A DNA stretch of 41,071 nt, from positions 1-41,071 of the forward strand of contig CANFHC010000028.1 of NCBI GenBank assembly GCA_947446575.1, in the 5' to 3' direction. The stretch comes from Bacteriovoracaceae bacterium. GTDB lineage: Bacteria > Bdellovibrionota > Bacteriovoracia > Bacteriovoracales > Bacteriovoracaceae. Numbering within the stretch: the first letter of the stretch is position 1; each line of letters starts with the position of its first letter. This document shows, in pieces, positions 8,028-30,593 of the stretch. Under the pieces are notes generated by a model. The model saw only the letters and a program-made list of their open reading frames with translations. It had not been told where the DNA came from and searched no databases. Position numbers and translations under genes: made by a program.

Positions 8028-8234
8028 CAAAAAATAAATTTGATAGTTTGCTAAAATCAAGGTCACTGCACGCACCATTTGCGCTTTGAGCATCCCCGAA
8101 GAGGTATCAACTTAAAAAATCTTTTAATTAAACTCATCAAAGCTTAACAGTTTCCTAACTTGTAATTCTTGTTGGTTTTAAACATTATACGGCAACTAAC
8201 AAAGCCAATAATGGTTAAACAATGAGGAATCACT

Positions 8235-9074
8235 ATGATTAAGAATTTACTTATCTCAGGTGTCATTTTATCAAGCGCTGTAACGTTTTCTGCTTTTGCT
8301 GAAACGATTACTCATTTTAAAGGTTCGGACACAATGGCCGGAATCTTAACTGATGCAATTATTGCTTCAGGTCTAAATACTGAAATCACTTATGAAGGTG
8401 GCGGAAGCGGATTAGCCGAAACTGCTATCGTTAATGGTGAACAAGGTATTGCTCCAATGTCTCGCGCTTTAAAACCAGAAGCAATCGCTGCTCTTAAAGC
8501 TAAAGGAGTAACACCAGTTGCTCACGTTTTAGCTCTTGATGGTATTGGTATTTTTGTACATGAGTCAAATACTATTGCTGGAATCGATCTTGCTACTTTA
8601 AAAGCAATCTATACATGCAAAATGACTAAATGGGAGCAACTTCCAGGTTCAACTAAGTCAGGACCAATTGTGGCCGTAAGAAGAAATGATGCTTCTGGAA
8701 CAACTGATACTTTTAAAAATCTTGTTGGTGTAAAAGAATTTGGAGCTTGTATTGCTGTTATGGCAGAAACAACTGATATTTCAACTAAGACAGCTACAGA
8801 TGAAAACGCTATTGGATATTCTGGAGCAACTGCTAAAAAAGATGGGAATATTGCTCTTTCTGTTTCAGTTGATGTGAATTCTAAATATGTTCCACTTAAT
8901 GTGAATACTGTTAGAAGTTTTGAATATCCACTTGCAAGAAAACTTTTTATTTTCGAAGCTACTGGATCAAAAGTTCCAAATGCATCAGAAGCTAAATTAT
9001 TAAATTCTTACCTTCTTGATAGATCATTCCTTGATCCAATTGTTCAAGACCATGAATTTTATACAATTGATTAA
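8235..9074 (+). CDS. PstS-like periplasmic phosphate/oxyanion-binding protein
   Basis: A 279-residue exported protein with a clear signal peptide (cleavage after SAFA) and ATG after GAGGA. The ligand-binding motifs of the PstS group are in place: FKGSDTM (residues 29-35), EGGGSGLAE, APMSRALK, DGIGIFVH, VRRNDASGTTDTF and AIGYSG. These bind phosphate by hydrogen bonds in true PstS proteins; related oxyanions are possible. No PstC, PstA or PstB is nearby. Instead six genes for heme proteins, porins and a membrane protein follow on the same strand, and an intrinsic terminator lies just after this gene at 9133-9170. Binding-protein-rich expression is therefore likely. No convincing Pho box was found upstream. 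Confidence 0.85.
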   Translation: MIKNLLISGVILSSAVTFSAFAETITHFKGSDTMAGILTDAIIASGLNTEITYEGGGSGLAETAIVNGEQGIAPMSRALKPEAIAALKAKGVTPVAHVLALDGIGIFVHESNTIAGIDLATLKAIYTCKMTKWEQLPGSTKSGPIVAVRRNDASGTTDTFKNLVGVKEFGACIAVMAETTDISTKTATDENAIGYSGATAKKDGNIALSVSVDVNSKYVPLNVNTVRSFEYPLARKLFIFEATGSKVPNASEAKLLNSYLLDRSFLDPIVQDHEFYTID

Positions 9075-9083
9075 TAGAATTAT

Positions 9084-11732
9084 ATGAAAAACATTTTAAC
9101 TAAAAAAGAATCTAGTTTGTTAATTCGTTTATCTCACGCCAAGACTATTCTTGGCGTGAGTTTTTTATTAATTTTTCTATCAAGTTGTTCGAAATCAAAT
9201 CCAGACAATGAAGATGGATTTACCTCTCGTCTTTTGCAATTAACTGCGGCAGAAAAAGAAAAACTCTGTCCTAAGTTTTCAAGTTCCAACTCGTTTATAG
9301 AACGCACTTACTCCGGTCAAAAAACTGGAGGAAGGATGTCGTTTCAAGAAATTAGAAATAGTGTTAATTCAGCTTGCATGAACTGCCACCAAGCTCCAGC
9401 TCAAAATGGTGGATTTACTTACGAAGACAGTTACGAATCAATTAAACAAAATGCACCGAAATTTGCAAGTGCCATGCTCACAAATGATTTAGGCAAACGT
9501 ATGCCACCTGAGTCTCGAAGAAGAAAAAATCCGGAAGCTTTTATGCAAATTGGAAGAAATCTTCAAAGTTGGATAAGTGCAGGTTCTCCAGAAGGAGAGT
9601 TTGACTTAAATCCAGGAGCTAATTCAGGGACAATTAGCTTAACCCCTGGCGGAGAGCTTGGCGAATGTATGCCAACAGCAGAAGCAGTTGGTTTTGATTA
9701 TAAAAAAGATCTATGGTTTTCTAGTTTAAAAAAATTGCCAAATACTTTGGCCGAAACTGATTTAATGACACTTGATTCATTAGAGCTCGCTGCGCGCGGA
9801 ACTTTCTCTTACAATGTAGAATATCCATTATGGGCAGATAACTCTTCTAAAGGAAGATATGTTCATGTTCCTTATAAAATTGTTAATAATAAATTAACTC
9901 TGCAAACGATTCAATTTAACTCAAACGATAAAAAATTTAATATTCCAGAAAACACGCGTTTTTATAAAACGTTTTATAAAATCATCAAACAGAAAGATGG
10001 AAAGACTCGGGCAAAAAGAATTGAGACTCGAATTATTGTTGTAAGAAATCCTGGAACGGAATCACTCTTTGGAACATATGCATGGGATGAATCTGAACAA
10101 GTGGCAACACTCGTACAAACTCCCTATAGAGATGGATCTCCCTTTAAAGATACGGTAATTAAGATAGTGACTGATGAAAAATTGGGCACTACTCGAACTT
10201 ACGGAATCCCTGGACGTCATCGCTGCTTTGAATGCCATATGGGCTCAGAAAGTAAAAGCCTAGTTTTAGGTTTTTCACCCTTACAATTAAATCGTCGAAA
10301 TATAGGAGAAGCTGGTAGGACAGAATCAATAAATGCTGCCGAATCTTCACAGGTAAAAAGATTATTAGAATACGGAGTCATATCTGGAGTTCAACATACT
10401 GATCAACTTCCCAAACTTGAATGGCTTGGACGTGAGCGACCAAGAAATACACTAGAATTAAGGGCCAATGGATATATGGTCGGTAACTGTGCTCACTGCC
10501 ACAATCCAGATGGATTTGCCTTTACCAAAGAAAACGGAATTACATTAAACTTAAGCGCTGGTGAAACTTTTAATTTTAATACTTTTACAAAATCTGTTCA
10601 AAATCCAACACGTGCCATTGTTAATCACGAAGGAAATTTAGATTTAAGTCATATCTACAGAAAAGTTGCAGATCCTCCTGAAGCACAAGGGATGACTTCC
10701 CAGATGCCGATGCACACAGCAGGGGCTCCAGACTGCAATGTTTTAAAAGTAATGGGTCAATGGATAAAATCCTTCGGTGATTATAACGAAGCAGTAAATT
10801 GGAAACCAGATTGTAAACCTGCAGCAGATGTAAAATGGATTGATCAAGATTTCACTTGGCCTCTATCTGATGTTTATGTTCCGAGAAGAGATGACTGGAA
10901 AGATTTAATTAATGGAATGCCTGAAGATTTTAGAAAACTAGAATTAACTGATGCCTTAAGTGCAATTATTAATAAAGAATATGCTGTTGGTTATTGGAAT
11001 AAAAAAGACTCCTGTAAATTTCCGAATGTTAATTTGCCTGCAGATCAACAAAGGCCGTGGATGGTAAATCGCGGAATTCCTAAACGTCCATTCGGAGAAG
11101 TTTATAATACAACTCCTGGTTCGTGGTTTTTTAGAACTAGTTGTATGAAATGTCATGGGCAAGATGCTGATGGAAATACAGCTCTTGCACGCGGGATTTT
11201 AAATTGGTCTGGAGGAAGTGTGCGTGTTGCAAACTTAAAAGATGGAATGTTTGGAAATCACGGAGAGAATTTAAAAACCTTTGAAAGCGAAAACAAAAAT
11301 CTAGCTGGTAACTATCTAGTTTGGATGGCCATGAAGGGGACTAGAGTTAAGTTTCCGGACGAACTTTCAAGTATTATTGGCAAGCATGGTGGGCAAATGC
11401 TCAATCAAATAAAAGATAAATGCTTGAGACAAATTTCGCCAGACAAAACATCTTCTCCTAATTATTCTGATCATGAAGTTTTTAATAAAGTTTGTTTCCA
11501 AGATAATCGTTATCAAGGAGATCCTGAATTAGCTTTTGATCCCTTTACAGCAAAACCAAAATACCCAGAAAAAGTTGAAGAATGGTTAGACCATGCCGCT
11601 TACAACGGTGGATGGGCCATTTATCAATACTTGAAAGATGCAGCAGAAAACAAAATCCGAGTAGGGAATGATGAATGTGAAAAAGTTTACGGGCAATCTA
11701 TTTTAATACCGAAAATGTTAAGGAGAAAATAA
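9084..11732 (+). CDS. Tetraheme cytochrome c lipoprotein (SO2930-like)
   Basis: An 882-residue envelope protein with four CxxCH heme c sites: CMNCH at 98-102, CFECH at 381-385, CAHCH at 469-473 and CMKCH at 687-691. A lipobox (LSSC, Cys35) marks it as a lipoprotein. The middle, about 210-560, resembles the SO2930-type diheme domain (SYNVEYPLWADNSSKGRYVH, then PGRHRCFECHMG, then MVGNCAHCHNP). An extra heme domain lies on each side. Hence it should be an electron carrier or enzyme in the periplasm or at the outer membrane. The start codon has only a weak ribosome site, and an intrinsic terminator sits in codons 17-29; translation may be needed for read-through. Start choice is supported by the basic n-region before the hydrophobic signal. 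Confidence 0.85.
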   Translation: MKNILTKKESSLLIRLSHAKTILGVSFLLIFLSSCSKSNPDNEDGFTSRLLQLTAAEKEKLCPKFSSSNSFIERTYSGQKTGGRMSFQEIRNSVNSACMNCHQAPAQNGGFTYEDSYESIKQNAPKFASAMLTNDLGKRMPPESRRRKNPEAFMQIGRNLQSWISAGSPEGEFDLNPGANSGTISLTPGGELGECMPTAEAVGFDYKKDLWFSSLKKLPNTLAETDLMTLDSLELAARGTFSYNVEYPLWADNSSKGRYVHVPYKIVNNKLTLQTIQFNSNDKKFNIPENTRFYKTFYKIIKQKDGKTRAKRIETRIIVVRNPGTESLFGTYAWDESEQVATLVQTPYRDGSPFKDTVIKIVTDEKLGTTRTYGIPGRHRCFECHMGSESKSLVLGFSPLQLNRRNIGEAGRTESINAAESSQVKRLLEYGVISGVQHTDQLPKLEWLGRERPRNTLELRANGYMVGNCAHCHNPDGFAFTKENGITLNLSAGETFNFNTFTKSVQNPTRAIVNHEGNLDLSHIYRKVADPPEAQGMTSQMPMHTAGAPDCNVLKVMGQWIKSFGDYNEAVNWKPDCKPAADVKWIDQDFTWPLSDVYVPRRDDWKDLINGMPEDFRKLELTDALSAIINKEYAVGYWNKKDSCKFPNVNLPADQQRPWMVNRGIPKRPFGEVYNTTPGSWFFRTSCMKCHGQDADGNTALARGILNWSGGSVRVANLKDGMFGNHGENLKTFESENKNLAGNYLVWMAMKGTRVKFPDELSSIIGKHGGQMLNQIKDKCLRQISPDKTSSPNYSDHEVFNKVCFQDNRYQGDPELAFDPFTAKPKYPEKVEEWLDHAAYNGGWAIYQYLKDAAENKIRVGNDECEKVYGQSILIPKMLRRK
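9133..9170 (+). terminator. Intrinsic terminator inside the tetraheme gene's signal codons
   Basis: CTCACGCCAAGA (9133-9144) and TCTTGGCGTGAG (9149-9160) form a perfect 12-bp GC-rich stem with a CTAT loop, followed at once by TTTTTTATTA. This is a textbook Rho-independent terminator. It lies 59 nt after the PstS-like gene and 49 nt inside the following ORF. It should end most transcripts after the binding protein and give lower downstream expression. Confidence 0.9.
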
Positions 11733-12320
11733 ATGAAAATTCTAACAAGCACGGCCTTGGCTCTTTGTTTTATTAACCTGAATAGCTTTGCAGCTATTGC
11801 TAAATATGAAATGAAAAAAAATAATGGTGCCGTTAAGTTTTTTGCTCTTGGAAATCCTAGTGCGATTCGAATTGATGGGATAGGGACAGGGCCCGAAGGC
11901 CGTTTAGAAGTTGTCTCTGATGAAAAAAACTCTAAAATTGCAGGTCAATTTGTTTTTGACCTTGGTTCATTAAATTCAGGGATTGATATGAGAGATTCTC
12001 ATATGAAAGAGAAGTATTTAGAAGTTGAAAAATTCCCAACAGCCAAGTTAACGATTGAAACAATTAATCTGGATGGAAATATTTTAAAAAATTTCAATAA
12101 AACCAATGTTCCTTTTACTGGTGTGATGAATTTGCATGGTAAGGAAAAAACAGTTTCAGGAATGGCAGAACTTAAATCTCTTTCCAAAGACGATGTAAAA
12201 GTCGTTGCAAAATTCAAAGTGAAATCGAGTGACTTTAATATAGAGATACCGAGTTTTGCGGGTATTACCGTTGCTGATGAAATTGACCTAGAAGTTGAAA
12301 TGCGAACAGCAACTAAGTAA
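11733..12320 (+). CDS. YceI family periplasmic protein
   Basis: A 195-residue exported protein with a signal peptide (cleavage near SFAA). The YceI lipocalin-like barrel motifs are clear: GQFVFDLGSLNSGIDMRDSH, then YLEVEKFPTAKLTIE and the C-terminal DEIDLEVEM. YceI proteins bind long isoprenoid lipids such as quinones in a hydrophobic barrel. Placed between two multiheme genes, a role in holding a quinone or other lipid cofactor for the redox chain is possible but inferred. The ATG follows directly after the previous stop with AAGGAGA upstream, so it is in the operon. Confidence 0.9.
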   Translation: MKILTSTALALCFINLNSFAAIAKYEMKKNNGAVKFFALGNPSAIRIDGIGTGPEGRLEVVSDEKNSKIAGQFVFDLGSLNSGIDMRDSHMKEKYLEVEKFPTAKLTIETINLDGNILKNFNKTNVPFTGVMNLHGKEKTVSGMAELKSLSKDDVKVVAKFKVKSSDFNIEIPSFAGITVADEIDLEVEMRTATK

Positions 12321-12332
12321 AAATAAAACATT

Positions 12333-13034
12333 ATGAAAATAAATATAAGCCTTTTTCTTCTCGTTGCTACACTTTTGTCATGTGGATTTAAACATGCCAA
12401 AGACAATAATGAAAACCAGACTGAAGTGACTGGTGAATTTGGTATGTCTCAAAAAGTTACATACTCTCAGCTAGAGTCAAAAATATTGGGTCCAAAGTGC
12501 TTGCGATGTCATAGTGACGCTGGTGGAAATCAAGGGAGTTTGAACTTAGAGTCTTATGAGCAAACAAGAGGCCACCTTGAAAGTATCAAACAAAGAGTAT
12601 TGGTAGATCAAAATATGCCTCCTAAATCACCACTGAGCAGTGGAGAGAAATCACTCTTGAATAATTGGATCTTAAATGAGATTTCAACAAATGGACAAAG
12701 CTCACCTCCAGTAAAAATTTCAGTGTTATGGCCCCGAATTAGAGATGAGATTATTCAAAATCATTGTATGCAATGCCACTCACCTCCCGGAACAAATACT
12801 ACTGAAGATCGAATGTCGACGATGGAAGCTGGACTTGATTTAACAAATTTATCCATTGTTAGAGAAAAAGCTGATTTAATATTTAAAAGGGCCATAATCA
12901 TTGGCGACATGCCTCTGTCGCCATTTCCTAATTTGAATGACCAAGAAAAAAAATTGCTTGCCCAATGGATGATCGATGGAATGAAAGATGAAGTGCTTCC
13001 TCCAGCAGATAACCTAGAGGAAAAAATACCGTGA
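12333..13034 (+). CDS. Diheme cytochrome c lipoprotein
   Basis: A 233-residue lipoprotein (LLSC lipobox, Cys17) with two heme c sites, CLRCH (56-60) and CMQCH (145-149). The two halves are similar: each has the heme site followed by MPP or MPLSPFPNL and a W-I/M-D/N-containing helix after an EK-K/S-LL sequence, suggesting an internal duplication of a small cytochrome domain. Pro-Met segments (DQNMPPKSP, GDMPLSPFP) are suitable distal Met ligands. The stop overlaps the next start as GTGA. It likely passes electrons to or from the tetraheme protein and the heme porin. Confidence 0.85.
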   Translation: MKINISLFLLVATLLSCGFKHAKDNNENQTEVTGEFGMSQKVTYSQLESKILGPKCLRCHSDAGGNQGSLNLESYEQTRGHLESIKQRVLVDQNMPPKSPLSSGEKSLLNNWILNEISTNGQSSPPVKISVLWPRIRDEIIQNHCMQCHSPPGTNTTEDRMSTMEAGLDLTNLSIVREKADLIFKRAIIIGDMPLSPFPNLNDQEKKLLAQWMIDGMKDEVLPPADNLEEKIP

Positions 13035-14161
13035 AATTTAGAGTCTTTATATTTCTCTTTTTTTTGATGAACGTTAATTTGGTTTTCGCTTTTCCTGAAA
13101 TGGTGACTCATGGGTATGGAAATTGTATTTCCTGTCATGCCAGCCCTACTGGTGGAGGGCTTCTTACTCCTTACGGTCGGGCATTATCAAAAGAACTACT
13201 TTCAGCAAAATCTTCTGAAAAAACAAAAAATGAAGAACAATTCTTAAAAGGATGGTTTACTCCTCCAGCTAAATTAGAGTTGGGGGGAGATATTCGTTTT
13301 ATGCAAATGTTCATGGATAGTAAGTATGAAACAAGTGGGCGAGCTATTTTAATGCAAGCTGATCTTGAAGCTCAACTAACTCTAGATCCTCGTACTAGAA
13401 TTTTGGCAACTGCAGGACGATTAGAGACAAATTCAACACCCAATAAAATAACGGATACATTTATTAGTCGTCGTCATTGGGTAAATCTGCTTATTGGTCC
13501 AGATGATAATAAAGAAAAATATCAAGTAAGGGTTGGTCGTTTTTTTCCTGCTTACGGGCTAAATATTGCTGAACATAATACAGTTACGAGAAGAGGTTTA
13601 GGGTTCGATCAAAATCAAGAAACATATAATGCAGAACTTTCTTATATTGGAACTGATTGGAATTTTTATGGAACAGTTGTGGCCGGAAGACCTGATAAAA
13701 AAGAACTTGATCGCGAATCAGGTGGTGCTATTCAAATCTCAAAGGTTATTGAATCGCGGTCTAAAGTTGGGGTTAATTTTTATTCAGGTAATGGAGTTAA
13801 TCACTCAAGTGCCGATCGAAGAACTTTAACTGGTTTGTATGCAATATATTCTATAGCTCCAAAATTCTATACAACCGTAGAATTTGATCGATCATATTCA
13901 CCTAAAAAAAGCTACGGATACTTTGAATATGGGAAAATTGGGTATGAATATTTTCAAGGATTACATTTATTTCTAAGTGGAGAATATGAAAAACCTTCGG
14001 CCTTAAAATTTGATAAAAAAATTGAAGCTTTAAGTTTAGGGGTTCAATATTTTCCATGGGTACATTGGGAGTTAAATGGAATCGCCAGAAGAGAGAAAAA
14101 TACATTTGTCTCAATAGAAAGCAGCAATATACTTTTATTAATCTTACATTGTTATTTATAA
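13031..14161 (+). CDS. Outer-membrane porin with an N-terminal heme c site
   Basis: A 376-residue protein with signal peptide (cleavage after VFA, residue 20), followed at once by VTHGYGNCISCHASPTGGG: one CxxCH at 32-36, then LTPYGRALSKELL. From residue 80 onward the chain is rich in alternating strands with aromatic ends (GGDIRFMQMF, YQVRVGRFFPAYG, WNFYGTVVAGRP), as in outer-membrane barrels. A heme at the periplasmic mouth of a barrel would place a redox centre next to a channel. The start is GTG, overlapping the diheme gene by 4 bp. The C-terminus ends LLLILHCYL; another frame also reads strand-like past 14110, so a late frameshift is possible but not needed. Confidence 0.75.
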   Translation: MKFRVFIFLFFLMNVNLVFAFPEMVTHGYGNCISCHASPTGGGLLTPYGRALSKELLSAKSSEKTKNEEQFLKGWFTPPAKLELGGDIRFMQMFMDSKYETSGRAILMQADLEAQLTLDPRTRILATAGRLETNSTPNKITDTFISRRHWVNLLIGPDDNKEKYQVRVGRFFPAYGLNIAEHNTVTRRGLGFDQNQETYNAELSYIGTDWNFYGTVVAGRPDKKELDRESGGAIQISKVIESRSKVGVNFYSGNGVNHSSADRRTLTGLYAIYSIAPKFYTTVEFDRSYSPKKSYGYFEYGKIGYEYFQGLHLFLSGEYEKPSALKFDKKIEALSLGVQYFPWVHWELNGIARREKNTFVSIESSNILLLILHCYL

Positions 14162-14174
14162 GCAGGATCAATTA

Positions 14175-15185
14175 GTGAAAAAGTTAATTTTTATTTTCTT
14201 AGTATTTTTATCTTCCTTAGTTTCAGCTGAAGAAACACCCGTTTTTTTAGAAATTCCAAAAGGATCTGCCAAACTTGGTCTGCTCCTGCAGAATTGGTTA
14301 ATCTATGATGAAAAAAATACTACGGATCGATCTAATTTTAGATTGAGACGAGCTGAGATCAAGTTAAGTGGAACTGTTCAAAAAGATACGTCTTGGTTGA
14401 TAATGTTTGATCCTGCAAAAACGTTAAAAACGGGAGCTATTGTAGCTACTAATGACAACAAAATTTTGCAAGATTTGATATTAAGTTATAGTTTTCTCAA
14501 TGATTTTGAACTTAGTGTTGGGCAATTTAAAATTAATACAACAGCAGAAGGATTACTTTCCTCTTCCAATTTACTACTTCCTGAGCGCTCTATTGTTGGA
14601 AGAACATATGGTGACAAGCGAGATCCAACGATTCGTTTAAATTGGAAAGTAGATAAATTAAAATTTATGGGCGCAATGTCACACGGGAACAAACCCAATA
14701 CCGATGATACAAATTCAGAAAAAGATCTTTATCTAAGAGGTGAGTATACTCCATTTAAAGGCTTAACTGTTGGTAGCTTTTTTGGTGCAGTAGATACATA
14801 TTTTCATAAAAATAAATATGGTGCCAATTTATTTTGGGATCACGAATTGGATTCATTTCATTTTGAATACGCTCATGAAGCTAGCAGCACTACTGCAGGT
14901 GTAAAACGCTCGGGAGGATATGTTGTAGATTTCGCTCATGGTTTCTCATCAGAAATTCAAGCAGTATTTAGATATGAAAATATTCTTTTTGTTAGGTCTT
15001 TAGACATAGAGTCAACTGCTTCAACTTTAGGCATAAATTATTTATTAAAAGAATCTAATTCAAAAGTTCAATTTGCTACTCTCTTTTTGAATAATTTGAC
15101 TGCATCAAATGGATCTTATGATGTAAGCTCAACTCCTATTTCATCTTCTGAATTATTTATAGTATCTTTTCAAATGGGATTTTAG
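14175..15185 (+). CDS. OprP/OprO-type porin
   Basis: A 336-residue outer-membrane protein with a signal peptide (cleavage after VSA) and GTG start preceded by AGGA. Family features: FRLRRAEIKLSGTVQKDTSWLIMFDP, LQDLILSYSFLNDFELSVGQFK, and later LPERSIVGRTYGDKRDPTIRL, the arrangement of phosphate-selective porins (Porin_O_P), and a terminal Phe (FQMGF), the usual last residue of barrel proteins. In known members it forms an anion-selective channel for phosphate or pyrophosphate. Its presence in the same operon as a PstS-like binding protein supports oxyanion uptake. It has no heme site. Confidence 0.8.
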   Translation: MKKLIFIFLVFLSSLVSAEETPVFLEIPKGSAKLGLLLQNWLIYDEKNTTDRSNFRLRRAEIKLSGTVQKDTSWLIMFDPAKTLKTGAIVATNDNKILQDLILSYSFLNDFELSVGQFKINTTAEGLLSSSNLLLPERSIVGRTYGDKRDPTIRLNWKVDKLKFMGAMSHGNKPNTDDTNSEKDLYLRGEYTPFKGLTVGSFFGAVDTYFHKNKYGANLFWDHELDSFHFEYAHEASSTTAGVKRSGGYVVDFAHGFSSEIQAVFRYENILFVRSLDIESTASTLGINYLLKESNSKVQFATLFLNNLTASNGSYDVSSTPISSSELFIVSFQMGF

Positions 15186-15200
15186 GAGATTTTTAATTTT

Positions 15201-16046
15201 ATGTCATGGGTTAACTTAACAAATCCTGTAGCCTTGTGGTGGATATTTTTAGCAGTAGCAAGTATTGTTAATATCATTGCCTGGAGTTGGACGCGCTATT
15301 ATTTATTTAATAAACAATCCTTTAAAAATTTCAGATTTTACAAACTAGTGCCCGAGAACCTTATTTGGTTTTCAGGATTTTACGTTTTTGGTTGTGCTTA
15401 CAGATCAATTTTTACAAAAGCAGATGTTCAAAAGATTTGCCTCTTTGATACTTGGCTCTCTAGTGTTTTTTTAGGAAGATCTGTCGCAACTATTGCTGAA
15501 TTAGCCTTTGTTGCCCAATGGGCAATTGTGATTCGTTATCTTGCAAAGCATACAGATGACAAAACGATTAAAACGATTTCTTTCTTAATCGTTCCTCTTA
15601 TTTTTGTAGCAGAATGTTTTTCTTGGTTTGCGGTCATAACAACAAATTATTTGGGAAATATGATAGAGGAGTCTCTTTGGACAGTTACTTACTCACTGAT
15701 CTTGATTGCTCTGATAAAATTATGGCCTAAGTTCAAAGGTGCATTTCAATATGCACTTGGGATTTCAATTTTTTGTAATTTTACTTATATTCTTTTTATG
15801 ATTTTTGTAGATGTCCATATGTACTTTATCCGTTGGCAAGAAGACCTCGTTACAAAAAAAGATCATTATGGTTTAATCGATGGTTTAGTGGCCTTGAATA
15901 CTAAATGGATTGTCACTTATGATATTAATAGTTGGAGAAATGAAATCCCTTGGATGAGTTTGTACTTCAGCCTCGCAGTCTTAGTGAGCATTGGGCTATG
16001 TTATGTGCCACTGAAAGCAATAGATCTAAAAAAATATATAAAGTAG
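15201..16046 (+). CDS. Polytopic inner-membrane protein of unknown function
   Basis: A 281-residue protein with about seven hydrophobic segments (for example residues 12-30, 84-110, 140-165, 182-205 and 252-270). I do not recognise the family. Notable polar residues lie in or near membrane segments: VAECFSWFAVITTNYLGNMIEESLW and FVDVHMYFIRWQEDL. It is the last gene of the heme/porin operon, 15 bp after the OprP-like gene, with GGAG about 11 nt before the ATG. Position suggests an inner-membrane partner, perhaps a quinone-linked anchor or transporter for the periplasmic components, but this is inference. Confidence 0.7.
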   Translation: MSWVNLTNPVALWWIFLAVASIVNIIAWSWTRYYLFNKQSFKNFRFYKLVPENLIWFSGFYVFGCAYRSIFTKADVQKICLFDTWLSSVFLGRSVATIAELAFVAQWAIVIRYLAKHTDDKTIKTISFLIVPLIFVAECFSWFAVITTNYLGNMIEESLWTVTYSLILIALIKLWPKFKGAFQYALGISIFCNFTYILFMIFVDVHMYFIRWQEDLVTKKDHYGLIDGLVALNTKWIVTYDINSWRNEIPWMSLYFSLAVLVSIGLCYVPLKAIDLKKYIK

Positions 16047-16086: not shown

Positions 16087-18270
16087 TTATTTTTTGAAAT
16101 TCCTTTTTGCAACTTGAAGTTTTTGATAACTCTCTATGAGTCGCAAGTGCTTATCGAGACCATCAAGATTAGAATTAGTTTTAGTTAATCCAAAAAATCT
16201 AACTTCGCCTGTCACTGTTGCAACGGCGGTGTTTAAAATTTCAGCTCCAAACATACGAGTCATATTTGGTAAATAGTCTGAAAGCTCAAGCTCTTCATTC
16301 AAAGTAATATCTAATACAGTATTAAGTGCTTGGTAATATCTTCTTCTTTCTGCCGAGTTGTCGTTAAATGTCATAAACATTTCAACTAATTCTTTAGCAT
16401 CTTCAAATTCCTTAAGCGCTAATAAAGTGAGGCATTTTAATTCGCCGATATTGAGTTGGCCCCACACCGTATTTTCATCAAAGGCCACACCGATTAGTTC
16501 TGCAATTTTTGTATAATCATCTATTTCACTTTCATCTAACTTTTTAACTAATTTTTTAAGTGCCTTATCGTCTAGCGAGTGTAGATTTAAAATATCAGAT
16601 CTAAAGGCGATTGATTTATTATGGTTATCCCAAATTAGATCCGTTGATTCATAAATTTCAGAATATCCCGGAACTAGAATTCGACAGGCCTTAACACCTA
16701 ATTCTTCAAAGTCAGCTATATAAACTTCTTTTTCTAATTGTTTTAAAATATTCATTAAATAATTATATTCTTCTTCTGTAGATCCAGAAAAATCCCAAGA
16801 ATGAAATTCATAATCCGATTTTTCACTGAAGAATTTCCATGAAATTACTCCAGTTGAATCTATAAAATGATCGATAATATTATTGTGTTCACAGATAGCA
16901 CTTTGGTTAAAAGTTGGAGGAGTTAAAACATTAAATCCTTCAAAACTTCTTCCTTGAAGAAGCTCGGTTAAGCTTCTCTCAAGTGCCACTTCAAATTTTG
17001 GGTGAGCTCCAAAAGACGCAAAGACCCCGCCATTTTTAGGATTCATCAAAGTTACACACATCACAGGAAATTTTCCGCCTAGTGAAGCGTCTTTGACGAC
17101 AATAGGAAATCCCTCAGACTCTAGTCTTGCAATTGCTTCAACTATATTCGGAAATTGAGCCAAAACACTCTTTGGAACATCTGGAAGAGTAATCTCTTCA
17201 AGAATAATTTGATTTTTTACAGCACGCTCAAAAATTTCTGATAGACACTGCACACGTGCTTCGAATTTTGTATTTCCTGCACTCATTCCGTTACTAACAA
17301 ATAAATTACCTATGAGGTTAACAGGTATATAAACTTGTTTTTTATCAGATTGACGTTCGTAGGGAATGGCACAAATTCCACGTTTTAAATTTCCTGAATT
17401 TGTATCAATTAAATGAGAGGCCTTAAGTTCACCATCTGAATTATAAAGTTCTAATAAATAATCATCCATTAAGTCTTTTGGGAGTGTGTCTTTAGGGCCT
17501 GCTTTAAACCATAATTCATTGGGGTAATGGACAAAATCTCCATTTGCGATTTCTTCACCTAGGTATTGATCGTTGTATAAATAATTATTGCTAATGCGCT
17601 CAAGGTATTCTCCTAAAGCAGAAGCAAGTGCTGCATCTTTTGTAGCCCCTTTTCCATTAGTAAAACACATTGGTGAGTCTGCATCGCGAACGTGGACTGA
17701 CCAAACGTGAGGAACTGGATTTCTCCAAGAAGCAATTTCAATTTTAATTCCAAGGCCCGTAATTATCGCAGTCATATTCGCAATTGTTTCTTCTAAAGAG
17801 CAATCCTTACCTAGAATCATTGTCTTTGTATCAGTCTCGCTGGCATGTTTATATAAGAGACCAGAATCAAGTCCTAAAACATCGGTGATTTCTATCTGAA
17901 AGTCAGGACCTTGTTGAATAACTTTTTTAACTGTACATCTATCAATCGATTTTAAAATTCCTTCGCGGTCGTGCTCAGATATACTTTCTGGCAATTCAAC
18001 TTGAATGTTAAAAATTTGTTTGTATCTATTTTCAGGATCAACAATATTGTTCTGAGTAAGACGAATGTCATCTGTCGGAATATTACGAGCGAGGCAATAG
18101 ACCTTCACAAAATAAGCGGCACACATGGCAGATGAAGCTAAAAAATAATCAAAAGGACCAGGGGCAGTCCCATTGCCTTTGTAACGAATTGGTTGATCGG
18201 CAACTAGGGTATAGTCGTCGAAGTGAGCTTCTACTTTAAGATTTTCTAAAAAACGTACATTTATTTGCAT
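16087..18270 (-). CDS. ycaO: OsmC-YcaO fusion protein
   Basis: A 727-residue cytoplasmic protein with two parts. Residues 1-140 are an OsmC-like domain, with NGTAPGPFDYFLASSAMCAAYF and CTVKKVI supplying the two Cys positions of thiol peroxidases. Residues 150-727 are a YcaO domain of the E. coli type: GKGATKDAALASALGEYLERIS, FEARVQCLSEIFERAVK and FEVALERSLTELLQGRSF, which include the ATP-binding acidic residues. E. coli YcaO helps RimO methylthiolate ribosomal protein S12; no RimO gene is nearby. Fusions of OsmC with YcaO are known in proteobacteria. No good ribosome site precedes the ATG at 18270. It converges on the heme/porin operon. Confidence 0.9.
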   Translation of the reverse strand: MQINVRFLENLKVEAHFDDYTLVADQPIRYKGNGTAPGPFDYFLASSAMCAAYFVKVYCLARNIPTDDIRLTQNNIVDPENRYKQIFNIQVELPESISEHDREGILKSIDRCTVKKVIQQGPDFQIEITDVLGLDSGLLYKHASETDTKTMILGKDCSLEETIANMTAIITGLGIKIEIASWRNPVPHVWSVHVRDADSPMCFTNGKGATKDAALASALGEYLERISNNYLYNDQYLGEEIANGDFVHYPNELWFKAGPKDTLPKDLMDDYLLELYNSDGELKASHLIDTNSGNLKRGICAIPYERQSDKKQVYIPVNLIGNLFVSNGMSAGNTKFEARVQCLSEIFERAVKNQIILEEITLPDVPKSVLAQFPNIVEAIARLESEGFPIVVKDASLGGKFPVMCVTLMNPKNGGVFASFGAHPKFEVALERSLTELLQGRSFEGFNVLTPPTFNQSAICEHNNIIDHFIDSTGVISWKFFSEKSDYEFHSWDFSGSTEEEYNYLMNILKQLEKEVYIADFEELGVKACRILVPGYSEIYESTDLIWDNHNKSIAFRSDILNLHSLDDKALKKLVKKLDESEIDDYTKIAELIGVAFDENTVWGQLNIGELKCLTLLALKEFEDAKELVEMFMTFNDNSAERRRYYQALNTVLDITLNEELELSDYLPNMTRMFGAEILNTAVATVTGEVRFFGLTKTNSNLDGLDKHLRLIESYQKLQVAKRNFKK

Positions 18271-26947: not shown

Positions 26948-28891
26948 ATGAGATTTAAAGATAGAGATGAAGCCGGAAAATTATTAGCAGATAAGTTATC
27001 ATCCTATGGGCATTTTGATCCTATTGTTTTAGCGCTCCCTAGAGGAGGTGTGCCAATTGCGGCCATTATTGCAGAAAAACTCAAGGCTAGTTTAGATGTG
27101 GTTTTGGTAAAAAAAATTCAAGCTCCTGGATCAGAAGAATTTGCTATTGGTGCGGTAGCCGAAGATGAAAGACCAATGCTTAATGAATCTTATATTAATG
27201 CTGAAAATCTTGATCGCGACAAAATAGCTTCGACTATTGTTAAGCGCATTTCGGAAATTAGAAAAAGATCAATTTTGTACAGAGAGAAATTGCCTGCATT
27301 ATCTCTAATTGGTAGGACATGCATTCTTGTTGATGATGGATTGGCTACAGGAGCTACAATGGTAGCAGCCGTTGAATGGTTGAAAACTAAAAAAGTAAAA
27401 AGAATAATCATAGCGGTACCCATTGCTTCGACTGAAGGAGCAAAAACGGTAACTCCGATGGTTGATGAATTTGTATCTCTTGTTACTTCAAGCAATATGA
27501 TAGCAGTAGGGTATTGGTACGAAGAATTTAACCAAGTTAGTGACAATGAGGTTTTACAATATCTGGAACGTCGACATGATTCAAAATCTTCTTTGCCAAA
27601 AGCTAAAAGTATTCCCGAAGAAATCGATAAAATAGCTGTTCCTTTTAAAAAAAGCGAAGAACTAAAGAGCATGATCGAAGAAATGAGTAAACATCGAATC
27701 GTTATGCTTGGTGAGGCAACTCATGGTACCAAAGAATATTATCAAATGCGAAGGGAGATTTCTGAAATTTTAATTCAAGATTATGGCTATGACTTTATAG
27801 CTGTTGAGGGGGACTGGCCAGCTTGTTATAACTTAAATAAGTTTGCTCACTCAGATAGCAAAAAAAGTTCAGAGGAAATTGTGCATAATAGTTTTCATCG
27901 CTGGCCGACTTGGATGTGGGCCAATGATGAAATCCCTCCACTTATTGATTGGATGAAAAAAAATGATATGGGTGGTTTTTATGGACTTGATGTCTATTCT
28001 CTTTTTGAATCTTTAGATGAAACAAAAAAATACTTGGCAAAGATAAATCCAAAACTTGCAGCAGAGCTTGTTGCTGGATATGAATGTTTCGATGAGTTTG
28101 GAAAAAATGAAATGAAGTATGCAGAGTCACTTTTGAAGTTTCCAGAAGGATGCGAAAAAGAAGTCGTGGCAAATTTAAGGGAACTGCTCCGGTTAAGAAT
28201 AAATGATGTGCAGCTTTCTAATAAGGAATTTTTTGACGTTAAACAAAATGCCAGAGTTGTAGAGAGTGCTGAAAAATATTATCACACCATGCTCTCGGGA
28301 AGTGTTGATTCTTGGAATATTCGAGACCAGCATATGTTGGAAACACTTGAGCATCTGCTTCACTTTTATGGACCAAACAGTAAAGCCATCATTTGGGCAC
28401 ATAACACTCATGTAGGTGACTATCATGCTACCGATATGCTTAAAGACGGGTATATAAATTTAGGCGGTTTGGCGCGAGAGCGTTTTGGTTTTGAAGATGT
28501 ATTTCTCTGTGGTTTTGGTAGCTATAAAGGGGAAGTGACAGCTGCAAAAGCATGGGGAGCAGAGGTGCAGAACATGATTTTACCAGAAGCAAAAACAGAT
28601 TCGATTGAAGAGTATTTTCATCATGCAGCAGAAAAAAGCAATGCTGAAAAGCTTTATGTTCCGTTAAAAAATCTCGATAAAGACAGTCCATTAAATCGGG
28701 TTTGTGGACATAGAGCAGTAGGGGTAGTTTATGACCCAATTCATGAAAGATTTGGAAGCAACTATGTTCCAACGAAATTAGCTAGTCGGTATGATGCATT
28801 TTTATTCATAGATGAAACACATGCCTTAAAACCAATTCCTTCAACTTTTATCTATGGAGAATTCCCTGAAACATGGCCCCAAGGACAATAA
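26948..28891 (+). CDS. Phosphoribosyltransferase-erythromycin esterase fusion
   Basis: A 647-residue cytoplasmic protein. Residues 1-210 form a type I phosphoribosyltransferase: LALPRGGVPIA and the PRPP loop ILVDDGLATGATM. Residues 230-647 form an erythromycin-esterase-like domain: MLGEATHGTKEYYQMR, FIAVEGDWPACYNLN, FHRWPTWMW, IIWAHNTHVGD and the C-terminal DAFLFIDET. The Glu and His residues of Ere enzymes are in GEATHG and AHNTH. Fused forms are known in other bacteria and may act in nucleotide/sugar modification rather than drug breakdown. The ATG follows GTGAGG. Confidence 0.9.
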   Translation: MRFKDRDEAGKLLADKLSSYGHFDPIVLALPRGGVPIAAIIAEKLKASLDVVLVKKIQAPGSEEFAIGAVAEDERPMLNESYINAENLDRDKIASTIVKRISEIRKRSILYREKLPALSLIGRTCILVDDGLATGATMVAAVEWLKTKKVKRIIIAVPIASTEGAKTVTPMVDEFVSLVTSSNMIAVGYWYEEFNQVSDNEVLQYLERRHDSKSSLPKAKSIPEEIDKIAVPFKKSEELKSMIEEMSKHRIVMLGEATHGTKEYYQMRREISEILIQDYGYDFIAVEGDWPACYNLNKFAHSDSKKSSEEIVHNSFHRWPTWMWANDEIPPLIDWMKKNDMGGFYGLDVYSLFESLDETKKYLAKINPKLAAELVAGYECFDEFGKNEMKYAESLLKFPEGCEKEVVANLRELLRLRINDVQLSNKEFFDVKQNARVVESAEKYYHTMLSGSVDSWNIRDQHMLETLEHLLHFYGPNSKAIIWAHNTHVGDYHATDMLKDGYINLGGLARERFGFEDVFLCGFGSYKGEVTAAKAWGAEVQNMILPEAKTDSIEEYFHHAAEKSNAEKLYVPLKNLDKDSPLNRVCGHRAVGVVYDPIHERFGSNYVPTKLASRYDAFLFIDETHALKPIPSTFIYGEFPETWPQGQ

Positions 28892-28991: not shown

Positions 28992-30593
28992 ATGAATTTA
29001 AAAACGACTCAAACAAAAATTTTTCTTTTTGTTTCCTTATTTTTAACAATATTTTATAACTTCACATTTTTTGAAAAAACTCTGATTGCATTCCCACTTT
29101 CAGGGCGCACCTTTTTATTTCTTGCATCACTATCCATTTGTTTATTTTGCTTTATTAACATTGTGCTGAATCTTTTTCGATCAAAGTATACTACCAAGCC
29201 ATTTTTAATCCTTATCTTGCTTCTGTCATCAATGGCCGCTTATGTAACAGATAGTTATGGAACGATCTTAGATGAAACGATGTTTTTGAATATCTTTGGC
29301 ACAGATCTTCATGAAGCGAGAGATTTATTAAGCTTTAAGGGCTTTCTTTATTTTTCACTTTTAGGAATTTTGCCATCGTATTTAATTTATAAAACAAGGC
29401 TTGAAATATTTTCTTTAAAAAAAGAATTTACATCTCGCTTGAAAACATTGTCCATCTCCTTCGTTGTGGTTTTTTTCATGCTTATTTCTTTTGGAAAAAA
29501 TTATGCCACATTTTTCAGAGAACAAAAAGTTCTTCGCAGTTATACCAATCCTACTTTTTATATATTTTCCATTGGAAAATATGCCGGACGTTTTTACGGT
29601 AACTCAAAAAAAGAATTAATCCGCATTGGTCTTGAAGCAAAAGTTGAGAGAAATAAAAGGATAAGAAAATTGGTTATCTTTGTTGTAGGTGAGACGGCTA
29701 GAAGAGATCGCTTTTCATTAAATGGTTATAAAAAAGAGACGAACCCACTTTTATCAAAAGAAAATGTGATCAGTTTCAATAATATGACTTCTTGTGGAAC
29801 CTCAACTGCCATTTCAGTCCCTTGTATTTTCTCAAATATGCAAAGAAGTCATTTTAGTGCTGATAAAGCAGAAACAACTGAAAACTTGTTAGATATTTTT
29901 TCTCATACGAAAAATATCAATATACTTTGGAGAGACAATAATTCTAATTCCAAAGGAGTCGCCGTTAGAGTTCCTTATGAGGATTTCAAGTTTGCTCCGA
30001 CTAATACAATCTGCGATCCTGAATGCCGAGACGTTGGCATGCTCGTGGGACTTCAAGATTATGTAAATAAGAATAAAAATGGAGATATATTTATTGTACT
30101 TCATCAGATGGGTAATCACGGACCTCAATATCATAAAAGATATCCGAGTAATTTTGAAAAATTTAAACCTGTTTGTGAAACAAATGAACTTGAAAAATGC
30201 ACTAACGAGCAAATTAATAATGCGTACGATAATGCTATTTTATATACCGATTATTTTCTCTCACATGTCGTAAGTTTTCTAAAAGACAATTCCCAAGAGT
30301 TTGGCACGGCCATGCTTTATGTAAGTGACCATGGTGAATCATTAGGGGAGAATGGAGTCTATCTGCATGGACTTCCATATTTTGTAGCACCAGATGAACA
30401 AAAGAATGTGGCTTCGATTCTTTGGCTTGGAGGAGCAATCTCTCAAAATACAAACTACAATTTACTAAAATATAAAGCGACCAGTGCTTTTTCCCACGAT
30501 AATGTATTTCATACGTTCTTAGGTTTAATGGATGTCAAAACAGATCTCTATCATCAAGAAATGGACATGTTACAAAACGTGATTAAAAAATAA
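28992..30593 (+). CDS. eptA: Phosphoethanolamine transferase (EptA-like)
   Basis: A 533-residue inner-membrane enzyme with about five N-terminal membrane helices (residues 10-190) and a periplasmic alkaline-phosphatase-fold domain. Zinc and catalytic motifs: VVGETARRDRFSLNGY, CGTSTAISVPC (nucleophile Thr), LHQMGNHGPQYHKRYP and YVSDHGESLGENGVYLHG, the signature of EptA/MCR enzymes. It moves phosphoethanolamine from phosphatidylethanolamine to lipid A, lowering its negative charge and the binding of cationic peptides. Cys pairs expected for disulfides are present (ICDPEC, PVCETNELEKC). A chromosomal, single-gene setting suggests a native envelope gene. Confidence 0.92.
   Translation: MNLKTTQTKIFLFVSLFLTIFYNFTFFEKTLIAFPLSGRTFLFLASLSICLFCFINIVLNLFRSKYTTKPFLILILLLSSMAAYVTDSYGTILDETMFLNIFGTDLHEARDLLSFKGFLYFSLLGILPSYLIYKTRLEIFSLKKEFTSRLKTLSISFVVVFFMLISFGKNYATFFREQKVLRSYTNPTFYIFSIGKYAGRFYGNSKKELIRIGLEAKVERNKRIRKLVIFVVGETARRDRFSLNGYKKETNPLLSKENVISFNNMTSCGTSTAISVPCIFSNMQRSHFSADKAETTENLLDIFSHTKNINILWRDNNSNSKGVAVRVPYEDFKFAPTNTICDPECRDVGMLVGLQDYVNKNKNGDIFIVLHQMGNHGPQYHKRYPSNFEKFKPVCETNELEKCTNEQINNAYDNAILYTDYFLSHVVSFLKDNSQEFGTAMLYVSDHGESLGENGVYLHGLPYFVAPDEQKNVASILWLGGAISQNTNYNLLKYKATSAFSHDNVFHTFLGLMDVKTDLYHQEMDMLQNVIKK

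Follow-up and report, generated by a model that had tools for sequence, protein, structure and literature searches.

A conserved operon of Bdellovibrionota combines a phosphate-binding protein, heme lipoproteins and two porins behind a promoter box shared with pst genes

The window, the whole stretch of DNA analysed here, covers 41,071 nucleotides. It is contig C28 in the draft genome (3.39 Mb) of a Bacteriovoracaceae bacterium. Seven open reading frames, referred to as A to G, locate on the forward strand between positions 8235 and 16046, with intergenic gaps of -4 to 15 nt. The features of the locus are as follows.

8143..8159, + strand: Pho-type box CTTAACAGTTTCCTAAC (CTTAAC and CCTAAC separated by AGTTT), two hexamers with an 11-bp period, starting 92 nt 5' of the ATG of A
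8235..9074, + strand: A, secreted PstS-like phosphate-binding protein; PF12849 (PBP_like_2), E = 4.9e-25
9084..11732, + strand: B, lipoprotein of 882 aa with four heme sites; four CXXCH, lipobox LSSC, a segment matching TIGR03806 (SO2930 diheme)
9133..9160, + strand: terminator-like hairpin CTCACGCCAAGA-CTAT-TCTTGGCGTGAG followed by a T-run, within the signal-peptide codons of B
11733..12320, + strand: C, secreted YceI lipocalin; PF04264, E = 3e-19
12333..13034, + strand: D, diheme c-type lipoprotein; two CXXCH, lipobox LLSC, Cytochrome_CBB3, E = 2.6e-7
13031..14161, + strand: E, fused monoheme cytochrome-porin; CXXCH immediately behind the signal peptide, followed by a 16-strand barrel
14175..15185, + strand: F, porin of the OprO/OprP family; PF07396 (Porin_O_P), E = 5e-16
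15201..16046, + strand: G, polytopic membrane protein without a Pfam or NCBIfam match, family unassigned, accessory

A YcaO gene on the opposite strand (16087-18270) comes after G. The canonical pst genes locate elsewhere in the genome, pstCAB-phoUBR on contig C15 and pstS on C4, and no pstCAB was found next to A at the operon, which agrees with the first-pass annotation of a PstS-like protein without PstCAB. The tetraheme and diheme lipoproteins of that annotation are confirmed by the four and two CXXCH motifs and the lipoboxes of B and D, and its YceI protein, heme-bearing porin and OprP-type porin correspond to C, E and F. Further along the window, a gene fusing a phosphoribosyltransferase domain to an erythromycin-esterase-like domain (26948-28888) adjoins an EptA/B-type phosphoethanolamine transferase gene (28992-30590).

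The best solved relatives of A are the phosphate-binding proteins 4pqj and 4omb (E = 1e-28). The motifs GSDT, GGGS, MSR and RxDxSGT, which lie in regions aligned to these structures, are invariant in 10 A orthologues. Against TIGR02136, the NCBIfam PstS family, A reaches E = 1e-38 and 133 bits, below the cut-off of 207.

In B, the CXXCH motifs locate at residues 98, 381, 469 and 687, and all four, together with the lipobox cysteine, are invariant in 10 orthologues. Residues 219-562 match TIGR03806 with E = 1e-33 and 117 bits, below the cut-off of 313, and no TIGR03805 beta-helix partner is present among the annotated ORFs adjoining B. The AlphaFold2 model of B (pLDDT 43, pTM 0.31) is too poor for a fold search.

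Protein C passes the gathering cut-off of Pfam YceI (70 bits against 23.7). A single-sequence search of solved structures returned only 2x32/2x34, the YceI domain of X158, whereas the C-family profile fits other YceI structures better than X158; the resemblance to the X158 domain is thus a hint only. One structure of an X158-type YceI domain holds ubiquinone-8, and in Cbp2D such a domain forms a fusion with c-type cytochromes (PMC8981238). Meanwhile, the YceI protein BcnA guards, with cytochrome b561, against lipid peroxyl radicals (PMC9113575). By analogy, these two cases offer a precedent for YceI alongside c-type cytochromes and ubiquinone-8, and C is predicted to be a probable isoprenoid quinone carrier.

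The single CXXCH of E lies at residue 32. The AlphaFold2 model of E (pLDDT 77) forms a 16-strand-type barrel, with a heme segment of low confidence. The best fold matches are OprO (4rjw; Z 24.5, rmsd 3.1, 289 aligned residues) and OprP (2o4v; Z 24.3, rmsd 3.2, 290 aligned), a near-tie with several other porins within 1 Z. Published Cyc2 models also pointed to OprO and OprP (PMC8406198). Like Cyc2, E appears to combine a signal peptide with one CXXCH immediately behind it and a 16-strand barrel. On the other hand, the Cyc2 signature AXPXFAR[QK][TY] 5' of the CXXCH occurs in 0/71 members of the E family, and PXL at the Cyc2 position is likewise absent from all 71. The family has a motif peculiar to it, A-[FY]-P-E-x-[VI]-R-H-G-Y-x-N-CxxCH-x-S-P-x-GGG-x-L-T-x-Y-G-R. 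Because the layout of barrel and heme is alike while the signature is replaced by this family motif, we regard E as Cyc2-like in predicted architecture, yet the published motifs set it apart and we do not class it as Cyc2. E also differs from Cyc2 in its neighbours, which are YceI and diheme genes and, at this locus, genes for a PstS-like protein and a porin, all behind a Pho box. The E-family profile gave no porin match among the sequences of solved structures, and a tblastn search of plasmids with E returned nothing credible. For F, the only solved-structure match is OprO (4rjw/4rjx, E = 0.004), and a hit to NCBIfam porin_ExtI (E = 1e-7, 31 bits) does not reach its cut-off of 150.

We surveyed orthologues in 369 genomes of the phylum. 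Long B orthologues (50-80% identity) are present in ten other genomes, and the order A-B-(C)-D-E-porin is kept in these ten, which belong to three families of Bdellovibrionota. The first-pass annotation had proposed a neighbourhood comparison of these genes; the gene order that it described is not unique to one genome, and the recurrence of A to F exceeds chance. Two of the ten loci are cut by contig ends, so that A is missing in G302 and the contig of G186 ends inside B. YceI (C) is missing from five of the ten operons (G168, G174, G165, G176 and G187). In Bacteriovoracaceae and in G302 the final gene encodes a Porin_O_P protein; in family f3 a Porin_5 gene (PF16930) takes this slot. The E proteins of these operons form one clade with support 100/99, which takes in one extra row, L074, adjoining a short B-like fragment.

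The seven-helix protein G had been counted as a member of the operon, a view that the survey does not uphold. Its homologues, with about 6-7 hydrophobic segments in the present protein, occur in 15 of the 369 genomes, only three of which also have B, and in the closest relative, G015 of the same genus, G is located elsewhere, away from the operon. With a position not kept in relatives and a rare distribution, G is rejected as a core member. In G186, G is divergent from A, and the common intergenic region bears the promoter box. Besides G186, L162 has a box near a G gene located elsewhere, and G015 shows a weak one. The G family, as seen in the window (15201-16046) and in L148 (3475-4335), has invariant R93, E100, E156 and E157 and several invariant Trp residues.

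The heme-porin also occurs in a wider setting. A named scan found E-type heme-porins only in records labelled as Bdellovibrionota lineages, as unplaced 'Deltaproteobacteria' and once as 'bacterium' only. Among 69 non-redundant heme-porin loci, a YceI gene is present in 58, directly upstream in 53, and a D-like cytochrome in 50; the same genome holds paralogous cassettes on C13, C8 and C18. On the basis of these counts and paralogues, the diheme lipoprotein, YceI protein and heme-porin form a module, to which the operon adds A, B and F.

Some cassettes adjoin copper genes (L031, L035, L037-L041, L043, L060, L071, L072, L077, L078 and L085), which encode a CsoR-type repressor, multicopper oxidase, CopA-type ATPase, CusBC and CopCD. 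Copper genes lie near 9/63 loci against 2/40 control windows (p = 0.12), mainly in one subclade, and we do not claim a copper link for the whole cassette family. In one Bacteriovoracaceae subclade (L045, L046, L052-L059 and L061), a periplasmic YHS-domain protein is encoded 5' of the cassette, at some loci together with a divergent LysR-type regulator. In L087, a 560-aa protein with 21 CXXCH is encoded directly downstream of the heme-porin on the opposite strand (9054-10736).

The main new result is regulatory, a promoter box shared with the pst genes. Repeats of TGTCAT, the E. coli-type Pho box, are absent from the promoter of A, and the search therefore turned to the form CYTAAC-N5-CYTAAC. 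This pattern has exactly three exact sites in the 3.39-Mb genome, which lie 5' of pstS (C4), of pstC (C15) and of A; the genes behind the C15 box are pstC-pstA-pstB-phoU-phoB-phoR. The reversed control pattern has two matches in the genome. In order to avoid circularity, we built a weight matrix solely from eight pst promoters, and with this matrix the site 5' of A outranks every other position of the window (82,110 in total). Among the orthologous operons, the matrix places the site first within the locus in 8/10 and second in G168.

Counting the CYTRAC form with at least 11/12 matching positions, we find the box 5' of A in nine of the ten orthologous operons (shuffles: mean 0.04, maximum 1), at a spacing of 11 only among the spacings of 7 to 19 scanned. 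Neither the consensus count nor the pst-only matrix finds a clear box in the operon of G164. By comparison, the box is present in 1/158 control upstream regions and in 1/63 paralogous D-YceI-E cassettes. A scan for Sigma-70-like promoters gave no excess over shuffles. Since the box is common to pstS and pstCAB, ranks top with the pst matrix and is rare before the paralogous cassettes, the A-F operon is most likely a member of the PHO regulon, which is the best-supported statement of this analysis; we infer that PhoB binds the box. The same shared box, together with the phosphate-loop motifs retained in A, indicates that the oxyanion of the operon is most likely phosphate itself.

The hairpin at 9133-9160 has 12 perfect pairs, a folding energy of -20.7 kcal/mol and a z-score of -7.0. 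A hairpin 40-80 nt 3' of the A stop codon is significant at 8/10 junctions (z of -2.8 to -7.6), and the structure is conserved across loci while the sequences differ. Binding proteins are usually made in excess. This putative terminator is probably an attenuator that raises the abundance of A over B.

With the PHO uptake genes (pstSCAB-phoU-phoBR, OprP/OprO) the operon shares the promoter box, a phosphate-binding protein and an OprO/P-type porin, but it has no permease genes and adds three c-type heme proteins, the heme-porin included. MtrCAB, Pcc and ExtABCD likewise use c-type lipoproteins and a barrel in the outer membrane to move electrons across it; there, a large barrel is threaded by a multiheme protein, whereas here a 16-strand barrel carries one fused heme and heme counts are low. 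The Geobacter ext cluster also holds a Porin_O_P-type porin (ExtI) among cytochromes, yet the other ext genes are absent here. BcnA-LcoA and Cbp2D/E (X158) set YceI beside redox heme proteins, and X158 is the structure that C retrieves, whereas here a separate YceI protein stands next to a diheme lipoprotein and a heme-porin, with no cytochrome b561.

Phosphate is often bound to ferric oxides. We propose, with a probability of about 0.45, that this is a PHO-regulon operon encoding a starvation-induced outer-membrane electron conduit, which would free mineral-bound phosphate, for example by Fe(III) reduction. When phosphate is scarce, PhoB would bind the 11-bp repeat at 8143 and turn on A to F; transcripts would attenuate at the 9133 hairpin before B, leaving A in excess. 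The YceI protein, as a quinone carrier, together with D and B may then carry electrons outward, starting at the inner membrane or in the periplasm and ending at the heme that would sit at the opening of porin E. With only one heme, E cannot bridge the membrane by itself and needs either a soluble substrate or an electron partner, and since YceI is missing in five operons, the quinone route through it is not obligatory. Close to the cell, electrons leaving E may reduce Fe(III) or else a soluble shuttle, by which phosphate would be released from ferric minerals, enter through F (Porin_5 in other families), be captured by A and reach the PstCAB permease, whose genes lie elsewhere. A narrower version is somewhat more tentative, namely that a PhoB-controlled trans-outer-membrane conduit, built on a non-Cyc2 heme-porin family, mines ferric-mineral phosphate by direct reduction, with liberation, entry and capture encoded in one operon. 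Reductive release of Fe-bound phosphate and reductants induced by phosphorus stress are documented (PMC12852198, citing McRose and Newman 2021).

Against mineral reduction stands the mostly aerobic life of Bdellovibrionota, in which Fe(II) would reoxidise. The conduit might instead serve a Pho-controlled adjustment of respiration, shedding excess electrons or preventing peroxidation of the envelope while A and F scavenge phosphate independently. We consider this unlikely: the protective role of BcnA (PMC9113575) and the paralogous D-YceI-E cassettes without phosphate genes speak for it, but the stable linkage to PstS-like and porin genes over three families suggests a joint task, and five operons do without YceI. 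Of the two options in the first-pass annotation, electron exchange across the outer membrane gains from a heme-porin of Cyc2 layout and two heme lipoproteins, while we found nothing to support the idea that the oxyanion itself is reduced or oxidised. A different chemistry, in which the redox proteins of a phosphate-starvation operon oxidise reduced or organic phosphorus (phosphite, hypophosphite, phosphonate or organophosphate) in the periplasm, with B as the oxidase and electrons passing inward via D and E, would also fit the Pho box 5' of A, and the strong conservation of B (65% mean column identity) is more in keeping with an enzyme than with a simple carrier. We nevertheless hold it to be quite improbable, as B matches cytochrome families and the SO2930 segment only, with no known phosphorus oxidoreductase among them, and a periplasmic oxidase needs no heme on an outer-membrane porin.

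Electrons could also flow inward from iron, if E were a Cyc2-like iron(II) oxidase to which phosphate genes became attached since the Fe(III) formed outside traps phosphate. Although the Cyc2 architecture of E (signal peptide, one CXXCH, OprO/OprP-like barrel) would allow this, the family lacks both Cyc2 motifs in all members, and iron oxidation would remove phosphate, a poor fit to Pho control; we think it very improbable. The handling of selenite, tellurite or arsenate, with an ExtI-like porin and cytochromes reducing a toxic oxyanion, draws on the weak porin_ExtI match of F. That score is far under the cut-off, ext neighbours are absent, and ExtI is unresponsive to phosphate starvation (PMC5877670) whereas the present operon has a pst box, which makes such a role barely plausible.

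The preferred reading remains the starvation-induced conduit that frees mineral-bound phosphate. Among the open-access papers searched, where absence is weak evidence, we found none that links the Pho regulon to cytochromes of the outer membrane, nor any that treats Bdellovibrio together with YceI. Secreted reductants that free phosphate are already known; we found no report of an outer-membrane electron conduit controlled by phosphate starvation. The cassette of YceI, diheme and heme-porin genes is apparently unnamed and spread over the phylum, and it may be a general outer-membrane redox unit. Bdellovibrionota are known for predation. If the proposed conduit is true, it would tie extracellular electron transfer to nutrient scavenging instead of respiration, and would give Bdellovibrionota a mineral-facing physiology.
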